From the NCBI RefSeq assembly GCF_034263275.1, contig NZ_CP139559.1, positions 4,030,001 through 4,094,000 on the forward strand: a stretch of 64,000 bases of DNA, in the 5' to 3' direction. Shown here in pieces: positions 29,899 through 47,577 of the stretch. Within the stretch, counting starts at the first letter, position 1, and the number at the start of each line of letters is the position of its first letter. The DNA is from Mucilaginibacter sp. cycad4 (GTDB taxonomy: Bacteria > Bacteroidota > Bacteroidia > Sphingobacteriales > Sphingobacteriaceae). The notes under the pieces were generated by a model. The model was not told the DNA's origin, ran no database searches, and saw nothing but the letters and a program-made list of their open reading frames with translations. The translations under genes were made by a program, and so were the position numbers.

Positions 29899-30834
29899 AT
29901 GAAATTTAAACATATATACCTGGCTGTCGGCCTCCTAATACTGCTGTATAGCTGCAAAGGCAACACCCAACCGGCGGATGATGCCGGCGATGCAGAAACA
30001 GCCGCTCAAACGCCTGTAACCGTAACCACAGTTGCCGACAGCGCCATGGTTGATTATATTGACCTGAGCGCAACATCCGTTTTTCAGCAAAAAAATATTG
30101 TTAAGGCCAATGCCAACGGTTATATCCAAAAGGTAAACATCCTGCCCGGGCATTATGTAAACAAAGGAGAGTTCATCTTCAGCATAAAAACCAAAGAAGC
30201 GCAGAGTATTGGCAACAGCATCAATGTGCTGGATACCACTTTCAAATTTTCGGGTGTAAATAAAATAAAAGCGGCCGGCAATGGCTACGTTACCCAACTC
30301 AACCACCAGCAGGGCGATTATGTACAGGATGGCGAACAACTTGCCGTGATCAGCGACCGCTCAAGCTTTGTATTTGTGATGCAATTGCCTTATGAACTGC
30401 GTGCGTATGTGAAAAATAATCAGGACGTACAACTTGTACTGCCCGGAGGCGAAAAACTTACAGCACGGGTAAGCTCATCAATGCCCGCTGTTGATTCACT
30501 ATCGCAAACCCAGGGCATTGTACTTAGGGTAAACAGCGCTAATCCAATTCCCGAAAATTTAGTTGCTAAAGCACGGATCATTAAAGCGATAAGGCCCCAT
30601 ACGGTGTCGCTGCCAAAATCAGCTATACTGAGTAATGAAACCCAAACCGAATTCTGGGTAATGAAGCTTATCAATCCTACTACTGCCGTAAAAACCGCCA
30701 TAACCAAAGGCATTGAAACCGGTGACAGGGTGGAGATCTTAGCGCCAAAGTTTTCGGCAAATGATAAAATAGTGATCACAGGTAATTATGGGCTGGCAGA
30801 TACAGCTAAAGTGAAAATAACAAGCCCCCTCTAA
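29899..30834 (+). CDS. RND efflux periplasmic adaptor, lipoprotein
   Basis: 311 residues. Lipobox LYSC at about residue 19 gives an inner-membrane lipoprotein. It has the barrel-hybrid halves of MFP adaptors: VKANANGYIQKVNILPGHYVNKGEFIFSI and, after a very short connector instead of a long coiled coil, IKAAGNGYVTQLNHQQGDYVQDGEQL. The beta-barrel and membrane-proximal domains follow. The last three codons and stop (Ser-Pro-Leu-stop, AGCCCCCTCTAA) are supplied by a repeat element. Confidence 0.9.
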   Translation: MKFKHIYLAVGLLILLYSCKGNTQPADDAGDAETAAQTPVTVTTVADSAMVDYIDLSATSVFQQKNIVKANANGYIQKVNILPGHYVNKGEFIFSIKTKEAQSIGNSINVLDTTFKFSGVNKIKAAGNGYVTQLNHQQGDYVQDGEQLAVISDRSSFVFVMQLPYELRAYVKNNQDVQLVLPGGEKLTARVSSSMPAVDSLSQTQGIVLRVNSANPIPENLVAKARIIKAIRPHTVSLPKSAILSNETQTEFWVMKLINPTTAVKTAITKGIETGDRVEILAPKFSANDKIVITGNYGLADTAKVKITSPL

Positions 30835-30973
30835 ATCTCCCCCGGAAGGGGAGACTTTAAAGCCCTCCTTTCCAGGGAGGGTTTGGGTGGAACATTCAAT
30901 TCCTCTCTGATAAATCCCACCAATCAGAGAGATAATTAAGCCCTCCCTTCCGGGGAGGGTTTGGGTGGGGCTT
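30822..30973. repeat. repeat cluster between adaptor and pump genes
   Basis: Two inverted copies of the CTCCCCTTCC/GGGGAG-type element (30822-30855 and 30940-30973), an intermediate copy with TCCAGGGAGGGTTTGGGTGG, and a hairpin CTCTCTGAT / ATCAGAGAG at about 30902-30931. It separates two genes that must be expressed together; the pump start codon follows the repeat end within 8 nt. Confidence 0.7.
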
Positions 30974-30977
30974 ATTT

Positions 30978-33900
30978 ATGAACCAGCGCAAAAACTATTT
31001 TATAACCCACCGCAAGCCTTTAGGCCTGGTGCTGGCCCTGCTTATTATGGGCGGGCTGTTTGCCTATTCAAAACTGCAAACCTCACTTTTCCCCGAGATC
31101 ACCTTTCCAAAAATAAAGATCATTGCCGACGAAGGCCTCCAGCCGGTAAATAAAATGATGGTAACGGTTACCAAACCGCTGGAAAATGCCATTAAGCAGG
31201 TACCCGACCTGCAACTGGTACGCAGCACCACCAGCAGGGGAAGCTGTGAAATTTCGGCCCTGCTCAACTGGAATGCCGATATCGACCTCAGCCAGCAGCG
31301 CATCCAGTCAAGTATCGACCAGATCAAGAACGACCTGCCCGCCGATGTAAATATCAGCGTAGCTAAAATGAACCCTTCTATTTTGCCGGTAAGCGGTTAT
31401 ACACTGGAAAGCCATAACCTGTCCCCTATTGAATTAAGGCAATTAGCTACTTACACTGTAAAACCGTTCCTTTCGCAGGTTGACGGGGTATCGGAGATCA
31501 GGGTGATCGGCGGTAAATTGAAAGAATACTGGCTCACGCTCGATCAGCAAAAAATGACTTCGTTGGGCCTTACGCCTGATATTATCAGCAATACGCTTGC
31601 CACTACCAATTTTGTAAAATCAGAGGGCTACCTGTCTGATTATAAGCGCATGTACCTCACTGTTACCGATGCTACCATCAACGCCAAAGATCAGTTGGAA
31701 GACCTGGTGATCAGTAACAACCGTAAAAGGATAGTACGGCTCAAGGATTTTGCAAGCATTCAGGTAAACGAAGGGATCGAGTACACCCGCATCAATGCCA
31801 ACGGGCGTGATGGCGTACTGATAGCTGTAATAAAACAGCCTAACGCCAACCTGATATCGGTGAGCAATGACATGGCAGATAAGATTGAGGCACTAAAAAA
31901 ATTGCTTCCCAAAGGGGTAAGTATCAGGCCATATTATGTTCAGGCTGATTTTGTGAACGATTCTTTAAAAAGTGTAAGTGACAGCCTTTGGATTGGTTTA
32001 CTACTGGCCATTATTGTGGCGGTGATCTTTTTAAGATCGTTCAAGGCAAGCATCACCATATTGATTACTATCCCGGTTACACTTGGGCTTACATTGCTCA
32101 TATTGTACTGGCTTGGTTACACTTTCAATATCATGACACTGGGTGCTATAGCAGCTTCTATCGGTTTAATTATTGACGATGCCATTGTGGTTGTCGAGCA
32201 GATACACCGTGTACACGAAGAACACCCGGATGAGCTGAGCAGCCATCTGGTCCGCAAAGCCATCGATTACCTTTTCCCGGCCATGGTTGGTTCATCTATC
32301 AGCACCATCGTAATCTTTATTCCGTTTGTACTGATGACGGGGGTTGCAGGAGCGTATTTTAAGGTACTTACCGATACCATGATCATTACCCTCTTGTCCT
32401 CGTTCTTTGTAACCTGGATAGGCTTGCCGGTAATTTACCTGCTTGTAACCCCTAAGCCTAAATTAAACGCGGCGGCAAAGGCTAAAAAAGAAGAGGTACA
32501 TACGGTTAAACAACAAAAATGGGTGAGTTTTTTCATCCTGCGCCCTTATGTAAGCCTCATTATCATTGCCGCATTAGCAGCCGTAATTGTGATAGTACCA
32601 CCTTTGCTTGAAACAGGCTTCCTGCCCGATATGGACGAAGGTGCCATTGTGCTCGATTATAAATCCCCTCCCGGGACTTCCCTGGAAGAAACCGACCGGA
32701 TGTTAAAACAGATAGAGAAACAGATTGTAAAACATCCCGATGTAACGGCGTATTCGCGCCGTACGGGCACTCAAATGGGCTTTTTTATTACCGAGCCCAA
32801 CAGCGGCGATTACCTCATCCAGCTTAAAAAAGACCGTACTAAAAGCACCGAAGAGGTAATCAGCGATCTGCGCAAAATTGTTGAAGAAACCCAGCCGGCG
32901 CTGGAGGTTGAATTTGGCCAGGTAATATCTGATATGCTGGGTGATTTGACCACGTCGGCCGAGCCTATCGAGATTAAAGTTTTTGGCGATAAGCAGCAAA
33001 CTTTGCAAAATCTGTCGAGGCAAATAGCAGGGCTCGTTGAAAAAGTAAAAGGCACTGCCGATGTGCTGCCGGGTATTATCATTGCAGGCCCTACGGTCAG
33101 TATCCAGCCACATTACAGTAAGATTGCACAGTATGGAATCACCGCCGCCGATCTGCAAATGCAGGTACAAACCGCATTGGAAGGTAACGTGATAGGCAGC
33201 TTACTGGAGAAAGAACAGCTGTCCCCTATTCGCATGGTTTACCCCGGTAACCGCTCACTTAATGTTAATGATATTCATAACCTGCATATCTTTTTACCAA
33301 ACGGCAAGCTTATTCCGATAACCGAACTTGCTTCGGTTGAATTAAGGCCCGGCGATGCCGAGATCAACCGCGAAAACCTGCAAAGCATGAACGTAGTGAG
33401 TGCAAGGCTGGAAGGCAGCGATCTGGGTACCGTAATAGCGGCCATTCAAAAAACTATCCATGATAACGTAAACCTGCCTACCGGCTACCATGTAGAATAT
33501 GGTGGCGCTTATGCCCAGCAACAGCAATCATTTAAAGAATTGCTTATCATCCTGGTAACAGCTTGTTTGCTTGTTTTTGGAGTGATCTTGTTCCTGTTCA
33601 GGCAATTCAGGATAGCGCTGCTTATTTTGGTGATTGGCATTTTAGGTATCGCCGGCAGCTTCCTGGCCTTATTTATAACCGGCACACCGCTCAATGTGGG
33701 CAGCTACACAGGACTCATCATGATTGTAGGAATCATTGGCGAAAACGCTATTTTCACCTTCCTGCAGTTTAAGGAAAGCGCTATCGAAAATGGAAATAAA
33801 AACATTGACGCTGCTATAACTTTTGCCATCAGCACCCGTTTAAGACCCAAGCTAATGACCGCTTTAGGTGCAATTATAGCGCTGATGCCGCTTGCTTTGG

Positions 33901-34070
33901 GCATAGGTGCTGGCGCACAATTACATCAGCCACTGGCTATTGCAGTTATTGGTGGTTTTTTAGCGGCATTGCCATTGTTACTTATTGTTTTACCGGCAAT
34001 GCTCCGTATATTGTACCGCAAAGGGTTCAGCACCCACTTAAATGAAATTAATGAAAGCCACCACGGTTAA
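30978..34070 (+). CDS. RND family efflux permease
   Basis: 1030 residues with the RND build: TM1 (about 13-30), a large periplasmic loop, TM2-6 (about 335-480), a second loop and TM8-12 (about 850-1010). The proton-relay motif in TM4 (SIGLIIDDAIVVVEQ, Asp pair near 398) is intact. The sequence is nearer to the hydrophobe/amphiphile group than to CusA-type metal pumps, which is consistent with the short adaptor, but the substrate is not predictable. Last gene of the two-component/efflux operon. Confidence 0.92.
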   Translation: MNQRKNYFITHRKPLGLVLALLIMGGLFAYSKLQTSLFPEITFPKIKIIADEGLQPVNKMMVTVTKPLENAIKQVPDLQLVRSTTSRGSCEISALLNWNADIDLSQQRIQSSIDQIKNDLPADVNISVAKMNPSILPVSGYTLESHNLSPIELRQLATYTVKPFLSQVDGVSEIRVIGGKLKEYWLTLDQQKMTSLGLTPDIISNTLATTNFVKSEGYLSDYKRMYLTVTDATINAKDQLEDLVISNNRKRIVRLKDFASIQVNEGIEYTRINANGRDGVLIAVIKQPNANLISVSNDMADKIEALKKLLPKGVSIRPYYVQADFVNDSLKSVSDSLWIGLLLAIIVAVIFLRSFKASITILITIPVTLGLTLLILYWLGYTFNIMTLGAIAASIGLIIDDAIVVVEQIHRVHEEHPDELSSHLVRKAIDYLFPAMVGSSISTIVIFIPFVLMTGVAGAYFKVLTDTMIITLLSSFFVTWIGLPVIYLLVTPKPKLNAAAKAKKEEVHTVKQQKWVSFFILRPYVSLIIIAALAAVIVIVPPLLETGFLPDMDEGAIVLDYKSPPGTSLEETDRMLKQIEKQIVKHPDVTAYSRRTGTQMGFFITEPNSGDYLIQLKKDRTKSTEEVISDLRKIVEETQPALEVEFGQVISDMLGDLTTSAEPIEIKVFGDKQQTLQNLSRQIAGLVEKVKGTADVLPGIIIAGPTVSIQPHYSKIAQYGITAADLQMQVQTALEGNVIGSLLEKEQLSPIRMVYPGNRSLNVNDIHNLHIFLPNGKLIPITELASVELRPGDAEINRENLQSMNVVSARLEGSDLGTVIAAIQKTIHDNVNLPTGYHVEYGGAYAQQQQSFKELLIILVTACLLVFGVILFLFRQFRIALLILVIGILGIAGSFLALFITGTPLNVGSYTGLIMIVGIIGENAIFTFLQFKESAIENGNKNIDAAITFAISTRLRPKLMTALGAIIALMPLALGIGAGAQLHQPLAIAVIGGFLAALPLLLIVLPAMLRILYRKGFSTHLNEINESHHG

Positions 34071-34126
34071 CACAGCATTTTTACAGATTCGGGACTTAAT
34101 TTCATGGCAATAAACACTCCCGAAAA

Positions 34127-35128
34127 ATGAAAAAGCAAATTTTGGCCGTAGCCTTGCTCATAGCAGGTATAGCTCCGTTTAAACTGAATGCGCAAACCTA
34201 TGTGGCCGATAAAACCATCGCGCTTCCGGGCGATGGCGGTTACGATTACCTGGCGATTGATAAAGTAAACCGTAACCTGTACGTATCGCATAGCACATCT
34301 GTAAACGTTATTAACCTGGATACCGAAAAGCCGGTTGGTGTTATTGATAACATGAAAGGCGTTCACGGTATAGCCATAGTAAATAAACTTAATCGCGGCT
34401 TCATCAGTGATGGCAAGGCAAATGCCGTAGTGGTTTTCGATCTGAAAACTTTTAAAACCATTACTACTATTGCCCTTACGGGTGCCGATGGCCCGGATGC
34501 CATTATGTATGACCCTTACTCAGATCGTGTGTTTACCTTCAACGGCGAAAGCAATAACTCATCAGTAATTAACCCGGCCACACTTAAACAGGTTGGCACA
34601 GTGGCACTTGGCGGTGGCCCCGAGTTTGCAGTATCTGATGGAAAAGGAAAGATCTACAATAACCTTGAAGACAAAAGCAGCCTGAATGTTATTGATAGCA
34701 AAAGCCTTAAAGTGATCAAAAACTATCCCCTTGCTCCCTGCGGTGGCCCAACAGGTTTAGCGCTTGATGCCGTTGATCAGAAATTATTTACCGTTTGCCG
34801 CGAAAATAAGGGGGTGAGTGTTGTTGATATCAAAACAGGAAAAGTTACTGCTACCCTGCCAATTGGCGCAGGTGTTGATGCCGTAGTTTATGACCCCGAA
34901 ACCAAACTGATCTTCTGCTCATGCGGCGATGGCGTTACTACCATCATCAAACAAAAATCGGCCGATGAATATGAGGTGATCCAATCGCTTAAAACTGCCG
35001 AAAGGGCCAGGACAATGGCGCTGGACGCCAAAACCCACAAGATTTATTTAAGTGTTGCCCAGTTTGAACCAGGAACCCGCAAAACCATTCCCAATACTTT
35101 TAAAGTGCTTGTTTTTAAGCAAAACTAA
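34127..35128 (+). CDS. YncE-like beta-propeller exported protein
   Basis: 333 residues with signal peptide (PFKLNAQ at about 22). About seven repeating blade units of the YVTN/YncE kind, for example NVINLDTEKPVGVID, VVFDLKTFKTITTIAL, SVINPATLKQVGTVAL, NVIDSKSLKVIKNYPL and SVVDIKTGKVTATLPI. Probably periplasmic. It starts 56 nt after the pump gene and may be read through from that operon. Role unknown; proteins of this type bind partners or ligands. Confidence 0.85.
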   Translation: MKKQILAVALLIAGIAPFKLNAQTYVADKTIALPGDGGYDYLAIDKVNRNLYVSHSTSVNVINLDTEKPVGVIDNMKGVHGIAIVNKLNRGFISDGKANAVVVFDLKTFKTITTIALTGADGPDAIMYDPYSDRVFTFNGESNNSSVINPATLKQVGTVALGGGPEFAVSDGKGKIYNNLEDKSSLNVIDSKSLKVIKNYPLAPCGGPTGLALDAVDQKLFTVCRENKGVSVVDIKTGKVTATLPIGAGVDAVVYDPETKLIFCSCGDGVTTIIKQKSADEYEVIQSLKTAERARTMALDAKTHKIYLSVAQFEPGTRKTIPNTFKVLVFKQN

Positions 35129-35259: not shown

Positions 35260-36297
35260 ATGATAAAAAAGACTGATTTTGTTTATTCCCAGGAGTCTGA
35301 ACCTCATCGCATCCGCACAAAAAAAATCTTGAAAGAGTTTCCGCAACTGCGTAAACTTATAGGTAAAAATCCTAAAACGATATGGGCCATTGTTGGGTTA
35401 GTAGCTTTCCAAGTTGTTTTAGCCTGGTTTGTACGTGACCAGTCATGGTGGATAGTTTTTGGCGCAGCCTATTTGCTTGGGGCTTTTGCCGATCATGCGC
35501 TGTTTGTGATGATCCACGAATGTACACACCAGTTGCTGTTTAAAAACCGTAATGCCAACCGCTGGGCATCTATGTTTGCCAATTTACCGCAAATATTGCC
35601 AAGTGCCATTTCGTTCGAGAAATATCATATCAAACATCACTCTTTTCAGGGTGTACATGAGCTTGATGCCGATTTACCGAACCGCTGGGAAGCAAAACTG
35701 ATCAGTAATTCATTTTTTGGTAAAGCAATCTGGCTGCTGTTTTTCCCGGTATTCCAATTGTTCCGCCTTTCACGTTTAAGGGAAATCCATCCCTTTGATG
35801 GCTGGATCCTGACAAACTGGTTATTGCAGGCAGCATTTACTACTGCTATCGCTTACTTTATGGGCTGGCATGCCGTAGCATTCCTGCTGCTAAGCTTCTC
35901 GTTTTCGGTTGGCCTGCACCCGCTGGGCGCCCGCTGGATCCAGGAACACTACCTTACCGTTACCGAAGAACAGGAAACTTACAGCTACTATGGTAATTTT
36001 AACGCCGTAGCCTTTAACGTAGGCTTCCACAATGAGCACCATGATTTCCCTTCTATCCCATGGAATAAACTTCCGGAGATCAGGAAGACTGCCCCTGAAT
36101 ACTACGATACTTTATACTATCATACCTCATGGACAAAATTATTTTTCCAGTTTTTGTTCGATAGGGAGATCTCGCTGTTCAACCGCATTCTGCGTAAAGA
36201 CCGCGGCCGTGTAGCGCTGACAGATATTTCAAAACCAGATATCGATCTCACCAAGTCCGAAACAGCAAAGCCGGAGCTTGTGGATGTTGAAAAATAA
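35260..36297 (+). CDS. sphingolipid delta-4 (dihydroceramide) desaturase homologue
   Basis: 345 residues. The N-terminus (DFVYSQESEPHRIRTKKILKE, PQLRKLIGKNP) matches the Lipid_DES domain that precedes the desaturase in eukaryotic DEGS enzymes. Three His boxes for the di-iron site are intact: HECTH (86-90), HIKHH (123-127) and HNEHH (257-261), with the DEGS-like context ETYSYYG ... FNVGFHNEHHDFPSIPW and EYYDTLYYHTSW. Four to five membrane spans. The predicted reaction is insertion of the 4,5-trans double bond into the long-chain base of ceramide. It is monocistronic with its own terminator. Confidence 0.85.
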   Translation: MIKKTDFVYSQESEPHRIRTKKILKEFPQLRKLIGKNPKTIWAIVGLVAFQVVLAWFVRDQSWWIVFGAAYLLGAFADHALFVMIHECTHQLLFKNRNANRWASMFANLPQILPSAISFEKYHIKHHSFQGVHELDADLPNRWEAKLISNSFFGKAIWLLFFPVFQLFRLSRLREIHPFDGWILTNWLLQAAFTTAIAYFMGWHAVAFLLLSFSFSVGLHPLGARWIQEHYLTVTEEQETYSYYGNFNAVAFNVGFHNEHHDFPSIPWNKLPEIRKTAPEYYDTLYYHTSWTKLFFQFLFDREISLFNRILRKDRGRVALTDISKPDIDLTKSETAKPELVDVEK

Positions 36298-36306
36298 GAA
36301 ATTGAG

Positions 36307-36336
36307 AAAGGGCCTTGAAAAAAGGCCCTTTTTTTG
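36307..36336 (+). terminator. intrinsic terminator after the desaturase gene
   Basis: AAAGGGCCTT (36307-36316) with AAGGCCCTTT (36322-36331), followed by TTTT; starts 10 nt after the stop codon. Confidence 0.85.
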
Positions 36337-36353
36337 TTGGACAGCATGCTAAT

Positions 36354-36732: not shown

Positions 36733-36850
36733 GTCATTGCGAGGTACAAAGCAATCGCGAACTATACTAGGGCAATCCCGCATAGTCACCATCTCCCTGC
36801 TAATTAGGATACGCGCGGCACGCGCGCACCAGCGGGAGGTCACTCCTGAC
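36733..36850. repeat. REP-like repeat (GTCATTGCGAG family)
   Basis: CGTCATTGCGAGGTAC AAAGCAATC at the left, with GCTAATTAGGA and a degenerate right end near CCTGACATA. A TACGCGCGGCACGCGCGCA palindrome sits inside. Confidence 0.5.
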
Positions 36851-38475: not shown

Positions 38476-38570
38476 CCCTCAGGGTCCTCTGCGAGAGACC
38501 CTGAGGGGGACATGAAACTTGCTTAGTTACTCTGCTAATAGGGGATTGCTTCGTACCTCGCAATGACGCG
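38476..38570. repeat. hairpin plus REP-like repeat
   Basis: CCCTCAGGGTC (38476-38486) pairs perfectly with GACCCTGAGGG (38497-38507). It is followed by a half-unit of the GTCATTGCGAG family (GGGGATTGCTTCGTACCTCGCAATGAC region, 38538-38567). Confidence 0.6.
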
Positions 38571-43080: not shown

Positions 43081-43415
43081 TCATTTCATTTTTTATTGGT
43101 TTTTGATTGATGGTATAGGATAAAAACTATGTCATTGCGAGCAGAGCAATCGCACGCTTTACAGAGTAAGCTTTTTTATCTTTTGCGATAGGATCGTATT
43201 TACTACATATGATCGGATTTAAACATTCCGTCATTTCGAGGTACTAAGCAATCCCAAACTGTTTAGAGAGCCTTGCATAGCCACCCTTGCTAATCGGGGA
43301 TTGCTTCGTACCTCGCAATGACGGGTAGAAGACACCTTTACACTCTCCTGTCAATCAATCCACACCCTACTCTACCCTTTTTTACACGGGGAGGCAACTT
43401 CCGTAATACTATATA
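43081..43415. repeat. REP-like repeats upstream of the TonB receptor
   Basis: Contains a half-unit TGTCATTGCGAGCAGAGCAATCG at 43132-43154 and a full unit at 43229-43325 (GTCATTTCGAGGTAC to GTACCTCGCAATGAC). No gene. The receptor promoter or a read-through path from the small upstream gene must lie here. Confidence 0.6.
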
Positions 43416-47461: not shown

Positions 47462-47577
47462 GTGTCATTGCGAGGAGCAGCACAGGCCAATGCAATGGGG
47501 CGACGCGGCAATCTTGTAGCTACACAGGGCGGCTATGCATTAGCTACGAGATTGCCACGCTTCGCTCGCAATGACAT
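47462..47577. repeat. REP-like repeat (GTCATTGCGAG family), full unit
   Basis: GTGTCATTGCGAGGAGC ... GGCAATCTTGTAGC ... GCTACGAGATTGCC ... CTCGCAATGACA: one of the best preserved inverted units in the window. It resembles 1-86 closely on its right half. Confidence 0.7.

Follow-up and report, generated by a model that had tools for sequence, protein, structure and literature searches.

A bacterial clade of the dihydroceramide desaturase (DEGS) family in Mucilaginibacter, with a predicted role in 4,5-desaturation

Introduction

Can a bacterium carry a dihydroceramide delta-4 desaturase and, if so, what would the enzyme act on and where would its gene have come from? One open reading frame raises the question. 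It lies in a 64,000-nucleotide stretch of the Mucilaginibacter sp. cycad4 genome, which we refer to as the window and whose first letter is position 1 in all window coordinates below.

Spt aside, bacteria are said to lack homologues of the enzymes by which eukaryotes make sphingolipids (PMC11087976), and a case has been made that BT_0972 of Bacteroides is homologous to the eukaryotic reductase (PMC9278070). Delta-4 sphingolipid desaturases are described as a cluster of their own, in a classification whose clusters mix sequences of different kingdoms (PMC5037126), so bacterial members may already sit in databases unremarked. The open-access passages we searched yielded no bacterial dihydroceramide desaturase; subscription papers are mostly outside this scope, making it weak evidence of absence. 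The gene described here belongs to a bacterial clade of the known DEGS family, and its activity is predicted from sequence.

The gene and its domains

The gene and its immediate features are as follows.

35260 to 36297, plus strand: gene for a DEGS-family protein, an ATG-started open reading frame of 345 amino acids, identified by its Pfam domains and its clade in the tree
35269 to 35376, plus strand: Lipid_DES N-terminal domain (PF08557), 49.5 bits at G000:C1:4065269-4065376 in the genome profile search
35515 to 35529, plus strand: histidine box 1, HECTH, amino acids 86-90, with both histidines invariant in 46 aligned rows
35626 to 35640, plus strand: histidine box 2, HIKHH, amino acids 123-127, with three histidines invariant in the 46 rows
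35974 to 35994, plus strand: ETYSYYG motif, amino acids 239-245, with E, T, S, Y, Y and G invariant in the 46 rows
36028 to 36042, plus strand: histidine box 3, HNEHH, amino acids 257-261, with three histidines and the glutamate invariant in the 46 rows
36303 to 36338, plus strand: hairpin and then a T run directly after the stop codon, a probable terminator judged from sequence and fold

Both domains of the translated protein score well above their Pfam cut-offs: FA_desaturase (PF00487) reaches 96.5 bits against 29.7 over residues 62-286, and Lipid_DES (PF08557) reaches 45.8 bits against 23 over residues 4-39. The Lipid_DES profile has a single match in the 7.11-Mb, single-contig host genome and none in any of 14 control genomes, so the match stands above chance. 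The nearest named relatives are from Mucilaginibacter, at 98% identity.

Structure adds little to this. The protein has no sequence relative among solved structures, and its AlphaFold model is weak (pLDDT 66). The alignment behind the model drew on 38 of the 80 related loci and excluded L068 because of a stop codon. With this weak model, Foldseek placed the AlkB chains 8f6t and 8sbb at ranks 3 and 4 and gave no match at E <= 0.001.

The gene is probably transcribed alone. A gap of 131 bases separates it from the upstream beta-propeller gene, and a hairpin and T run come directly after its stop codon (the fold of 36300-36340 has -19.8 kcal/mol and z -5.35). A simple pattern scan did not report the hairpin at 36303-36338, and pattern scans found promoter-like sites at no more than the shuffled level.

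Two kinds of neighbouring sequence can be recorded in passing. Upstream of the desaturase gene, the region 29899-35128 encodes a 311-aa efflux-adaptor-like lipoprotein and a 1030-aa RND-type transporter (both read from translations), followed by a 333-aa beta-propeller protein with YncE-like matches below cut-off; none of these genes points to lipids. The motif GTCATTGCGAGG occurs eight times in the window with at most one mismatch, where 0.22 copies are expected, at sites 36733-36744, 38556-38567, 43131-43322, 47464-47575 and 69-80. Its copies often form near inverted pairs, and it looks like an intergenic palindromic repeat family.

Likeness to DEGS and to other desaturases

The human DEGS1 and DEGS2 sequences used throughout, called reference DEGS1 and DEGS2 below, came from no database, and all comparisons with them are approximate. 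The window's protein is about 38% identical to reference DEGS1 over 322 aa (E 5e-77) and about 39% identical to reference DEGS2 over 318 aa. When these two were aligned with 44 bacterial homologues, 43 columns were invariant across the 46 rows, including all of the histidine-box histidines, H16, H79, H220, H230, E-T-x-S-Y-Y-G and D262. The translation also has EYYD at amino acids 280-283.

A sequence-only reading of this DNA had proposed a Lipid_DES/DEGS family protein at 35260-36297, with three histidine boxes in DEGS context (ETYSYYG and EYYD). The family assignment is borne out by Pfam, the identity to DEGS1, the tree and the invariant columns, and the motifs are confirmed in both translation and alignment. 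That reading had also held that a place among ordinary acyl-lipid desaturases would speak against it, and we found no such placement. The nearest desaturase outside the DEGS family, among the few outgroups compared, is an Anabaena plasmid protein with 26% identity over 274 aa (E 3e-13). Three other host proteins have desaturase domains: two align to the window's protein over no more than short stretches (27 and 41 residues), and the third does not align at all. In the NCBIfam search, acyl-lipid models included, no model was over its cut-off, the top match being 26.7 bits against 500.

Proposed function

We propose, with moderate confidence, that the gene encodes an integral-membrane, histidine-box (di-metal) enzyme of a bacterial DEGS-family clade, with a predicted role in the 4,5-desaturation of dihydroceramide. 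In DEGS-family chemistry, a di-metal site formed by the histidine boxes activates oxygen, and hydrogens are removed at C4 and C5. In the host, the boxes would hold such a site in the membrane, oxygen would be activated with electrons from a donor, and the long-chain base of dihydroceramide would lose hydrogens at C4 and C5. This would yield a 4,5-unsaturated ceramide, which may pass on to an inositol sphingolipid. The double-bond position, substrate, electron donor and membrane side of the predicted enzyme are features that we infer.

A source for the proposed substrate is plausible because the host has a row of sphingolipid genes. Its serine palmitoyltransferase (SPT) gene at C1:954259-955440 scores 748 bits with NF047600 (cut-off 640) and 620 bits against the solved SPT 3a2b. 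On the same strand, it is followed by genes for GNAT-family and epimerase-family proteins, a myo-inositol-1-phosphate synthase, a DUF5686 protein and a CDP-alcohol transferase (PIP synthase). The CDP-alcohol transferase passes the PIPSynBT1523 cut-off, and the GNAT and epimerase proteins have no NCBIfam model over cut-off. The Bacteroides inositol-lipid enzymes include BT_1522, BT_1523 and BT_1526 (MIPS) (PMC9246714), and Caulobacter dihydroceramide is completed by the N-acyltransferase CerS and the NDUFA9-like reductase CerR (PMC11324152, PMC11087976). By analogy, the host's GNAT and epimerase genes may fill the CerS and CerR parts.

Co-occurrence and linkage with sphingolipid genes

The 40 desaturase-bearing genomes found in the phylum divide into nine with an SPT over the cut-off, 25 with an SPT-like protein below it (477-526 bits) and six with neither. 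A homologue of the host's GNAT protein adjoins the SPT in all nine of the first group and the SPT-like gene in 24 of the 25 in the second, the exception being G070, for which one of two SPT-like loci was examined. Where a cut-off SPT occurs without a desaturase (n=9), a GNAT homologue is at the SPT in 4/9.

Statistical association depends on where one looks. Over the whole phylum, SPT and desaturase are not significantly associated (p 0.18), and outside the window's class SPT-like proteins are near-universal (280/297 Bacteroidota), so the test is empty there. Inside the class (98 genomes, with size and memberships counted by hand), a cut-off SPT is found in 9/15 desaturase-bearing genomes versus 9/83 others, with p values, inflated by kinship of the genomes, of 9e-5 overall, 0.03 when the genus counts as a single row and 0.09 when it is left out. 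In a 161-genome family draw, whose membership was worked out from genome numbering, the counts are 26/27 versus 46/134 (p 7e-10 for the full draw and 0.056 once the genus is removed, both subject to the same inflation); G442 is the desaturase genome without a cut-off SPT. We considered SPT co-occurrence as proof of substrate and set it aside as not decisive, given the phylum-wide result and the weakness of the signal without the genus. SPT without desaturase is common.

Physical linkage gives no pointer either. Among 49 desaturase neighbourhoods there was no conserved operon: the most frequent neighbour family turns up at 13, three of them from the 37-locus phylum set, and the desaturase itself was recognised in 46 of the 49 (the motif filter missed L160, L166 and L169). 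None of the host's SPT-row genes had a match at E <= 1e-10 in 44 desaturase neighbourhoods.

An SPT-like gene adjoins a GNAT homologue in 24/24 of the desaturase-bearing genomes examined outside the class (L225-L248), and sphingolipid synthesis in Bacteroidota may be wider than the curated SPT model shows. G047, G082 and G176 have BioF/Kbl-like frames with one or two internal stops, which are either broken copies or assembly errors.

Alternative substrates and reactions

The SPT-less desaturase genomes and the free-standing gene keep a capnine-based substrate, alone or additional, as a live rival. The enzyme would then act on a sulfonolipid, i.e., on capnine base or N-acyl-capnine (the cysteate fatty-acyltransferase route), either instead of dihydroceramide or besides it. 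Each of the six SPT-less genomes (G146, G150, G249, G371, G387 and G391) has a homologue of cysteate acyltransferase, with scores of 589-637 bits. A further homologue is present in the window's genome, at 615 bits to the solved chain 28eh, so sulfonolipids may also be made by the host. Flavocristamide A may be an unsaturated sulfonolipid, but the literature passages did not confirm this, and it does not count here as evidence. Against a sulfonolipid substrate, the homologue is near-universal in the window's class (91/98, a hand count), so its presence in the six genomes does not discriminate. Moreover, 25 desaturase genomes lie outside the class, and the non-f24 ones among them have no strong cysteate-acyltransferase match among the matches listed. 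We regard a sulfonolipid substrate as unlikely, if worth keeping in mind.

A second reading changes the reaction rather than the substrate: the enzyme could be a C4-hydroxylase, or bifunctional like DEGS2, giving phytosphingosine-type 4-hydroxy bases. DEGS2 belongs to the same family and performs both reactions (PMC10140171), and sequence family alone does not distinguish the two. The third histidine box gives a weak hint the other way, being HNEHH in the 44 bacterial rows and reference DEGS1 but HVEHH in reference DEGS2. Hydroxylation is likewise a live rival, though we judge it to be unlikely.

More doubtful again is an acyl chain as the substrate, whether in a glycerolipid or, amide-linked, in a sphingolipid. 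PMC11324152 reports that the Caulobacter DesA-family protein CC_0202 hydroxylates the amide-linked acyl chain of a sphingolipid, and the window's protein has weak matches to DesA and other NCBIfam models, all below cut-off. Its Lipid_DES domain and its conserved delta-4 family residues argue against this reading, and 4,5-desaturation of dihydroceramide stays the one that we prefer.

Distribution and origin

Our distribution survey covered Bacteroidota along with viral, phage and plasmid collections. Lipid_DES genes are present in 40/395 Bacteroidota genomes and 25/170 genera. Within the family draw, 40/42 genomes of the window's genus have one, as do 5/179 others. The two genus genomes without a Lipid_DES match, G564 and G594, are natural negatives for a lipid comparison. 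There were no desaturase homologues in IMG/VR or in phages, and the plasmid search gave one remote desaturase (24.5% identity).

The tree has 46 rows: 35 of the 40 phylum hits, nine proteins from seven further family genomes and the two human reference proteins. G326 (no open reading frame in its short locus, L095), G031, G176, G261 and G363 were left out. The tree is unrooted, since a first tree could not place its four outgroups and they were dropped, and eukaryotes are represented by one species, human.

A starred split (99/96) separates 38 bacterial proteins, including the window's, from a group that holds human DEGS1 and DEGS2. The 38 come from nine family codes (f1, f2, f8, f9, f10, f17, f24, f35 and f43), and all have HP(L/V)G(A/G)RW(I/V)QEH. 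On the other side, alongside the human proteins, are four f24 proteins (L082-L085), L255 and L257, and all have GHF(I/V)xEH. Within the 38, a starred clade of 13 unites f17 with f35, and the window's class has its rows in a clade of 20 (92/89, without a star), so the desaturase gene follows the phylum in broad terms. Joining the six genus rows, the window's included, with the human proteins in one tree is rejected, with a log-likelihood lower by 64.9 and p-AU 5e-7.

The sequence-only reading had called the enzyme "eukaryotic-type" and had suggested either transfer from a eukaryote or a bacterial root for the family. The first description is loose, as the protein falls in a bacterial HPLGARWIQEH clade and the joining of its genus with the human proteins is rejected; a bacterial root stays a conjecture on this unrooted tree. 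Recent capture of the window's gene from a eukaryote, for which one could cite a family best known from eukaryotes and a patchy distribution in the phylum, is very unlikely given the starred split, the AU result (in which eukaryotes are represented by the two human reference rows), the near-constant presence in the genus and a GC content (44.2%) that matches the window's (43.8%).

The bacterial proteins on the human side of the split deserve separate mention. L082-L085 are eukaryote-like desaturases in bacteria: L082 is 49% identical to reference DEGS1 over 310 aa (an approximate figure) versus 42% to the window's protein, and further f24 genomes have the GARWIQEH type. Two genus genomes have a second Lipid_DES gene of the GHFI type, L255 (G473:C13:274900-276800) and L257 (G597:C14:29700-31900). 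The pair share 89% identity, are 32-34% identical to the window's protein, sit on a long branch and are candidates for transfer between domains.

A wider hypothesis, which we offer tentatively and consider unlikely, is that true sphingosine-type (4,5-unsaturated) ceramides have long been made independently in Bacteroidota (in the genus perhaps as ceramide phosphoinositol), that eukaryotic DEGS derived from a bacterial member, and that a eukaryote-like subtype survives in some Bacteroidota.

Implications

If the predicted activity is right, the presence of delta-4 desaturases across 25 of the 170 Bacteroidota genera would be a further exception beside Spt and BT_0972, and some bacteria may make sphingosine-type lipids that are usually counted as eukaryotic. 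Bacterial ceramide and sphingosine become a testable prediction for named species, among them the cultured gene carriers Mucilaginibacter gossypii and M. lappiensis (loci L002 and L007), and one that bears on the source of the eukaryotic enzyme.

Comparison with known systems

With eukaryotic DEGS1/DES1 and DEGS2, the window's protein has in common both Pfam domains, its length, the three histidine boxes and E-T-x-S-Y-Y-G, at the 38-39% identity given above. It differs in having HPLGARWIQEH where the human reference proteins have HPISGHFxAEH, and in its separate clade. The human reference sequences start with MG, whereas the window's protein has no glycine at position 2, and its C-terminal tail is longer.

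The bacterial GHFI subtype (L082-L085 of f24, L255 and L257) shares the family and motifs with the window's protein. Its signature, however, is that of the human proteins, it is 32-44% identical to the window's protein, and it lies on the opposite side of the split.

Caulobacter CC_0202 is, like the window's protein, a bacterial enzyme of the desaturase/hydroxylase kind, and it is reported to act on sphingolipids. By its description in PMC11324152, it is set apart by its DesA family and by its target, the amide-linked acyl chain.

Finally, the host resembles the bacterial Spt/CerS/CerR pathway in having an SPT with adjoining GNAT-family and epimerase-family genes. As described in PMC10191378, that pathway ends at dihydroceramide, to which the desaturase would add one step.
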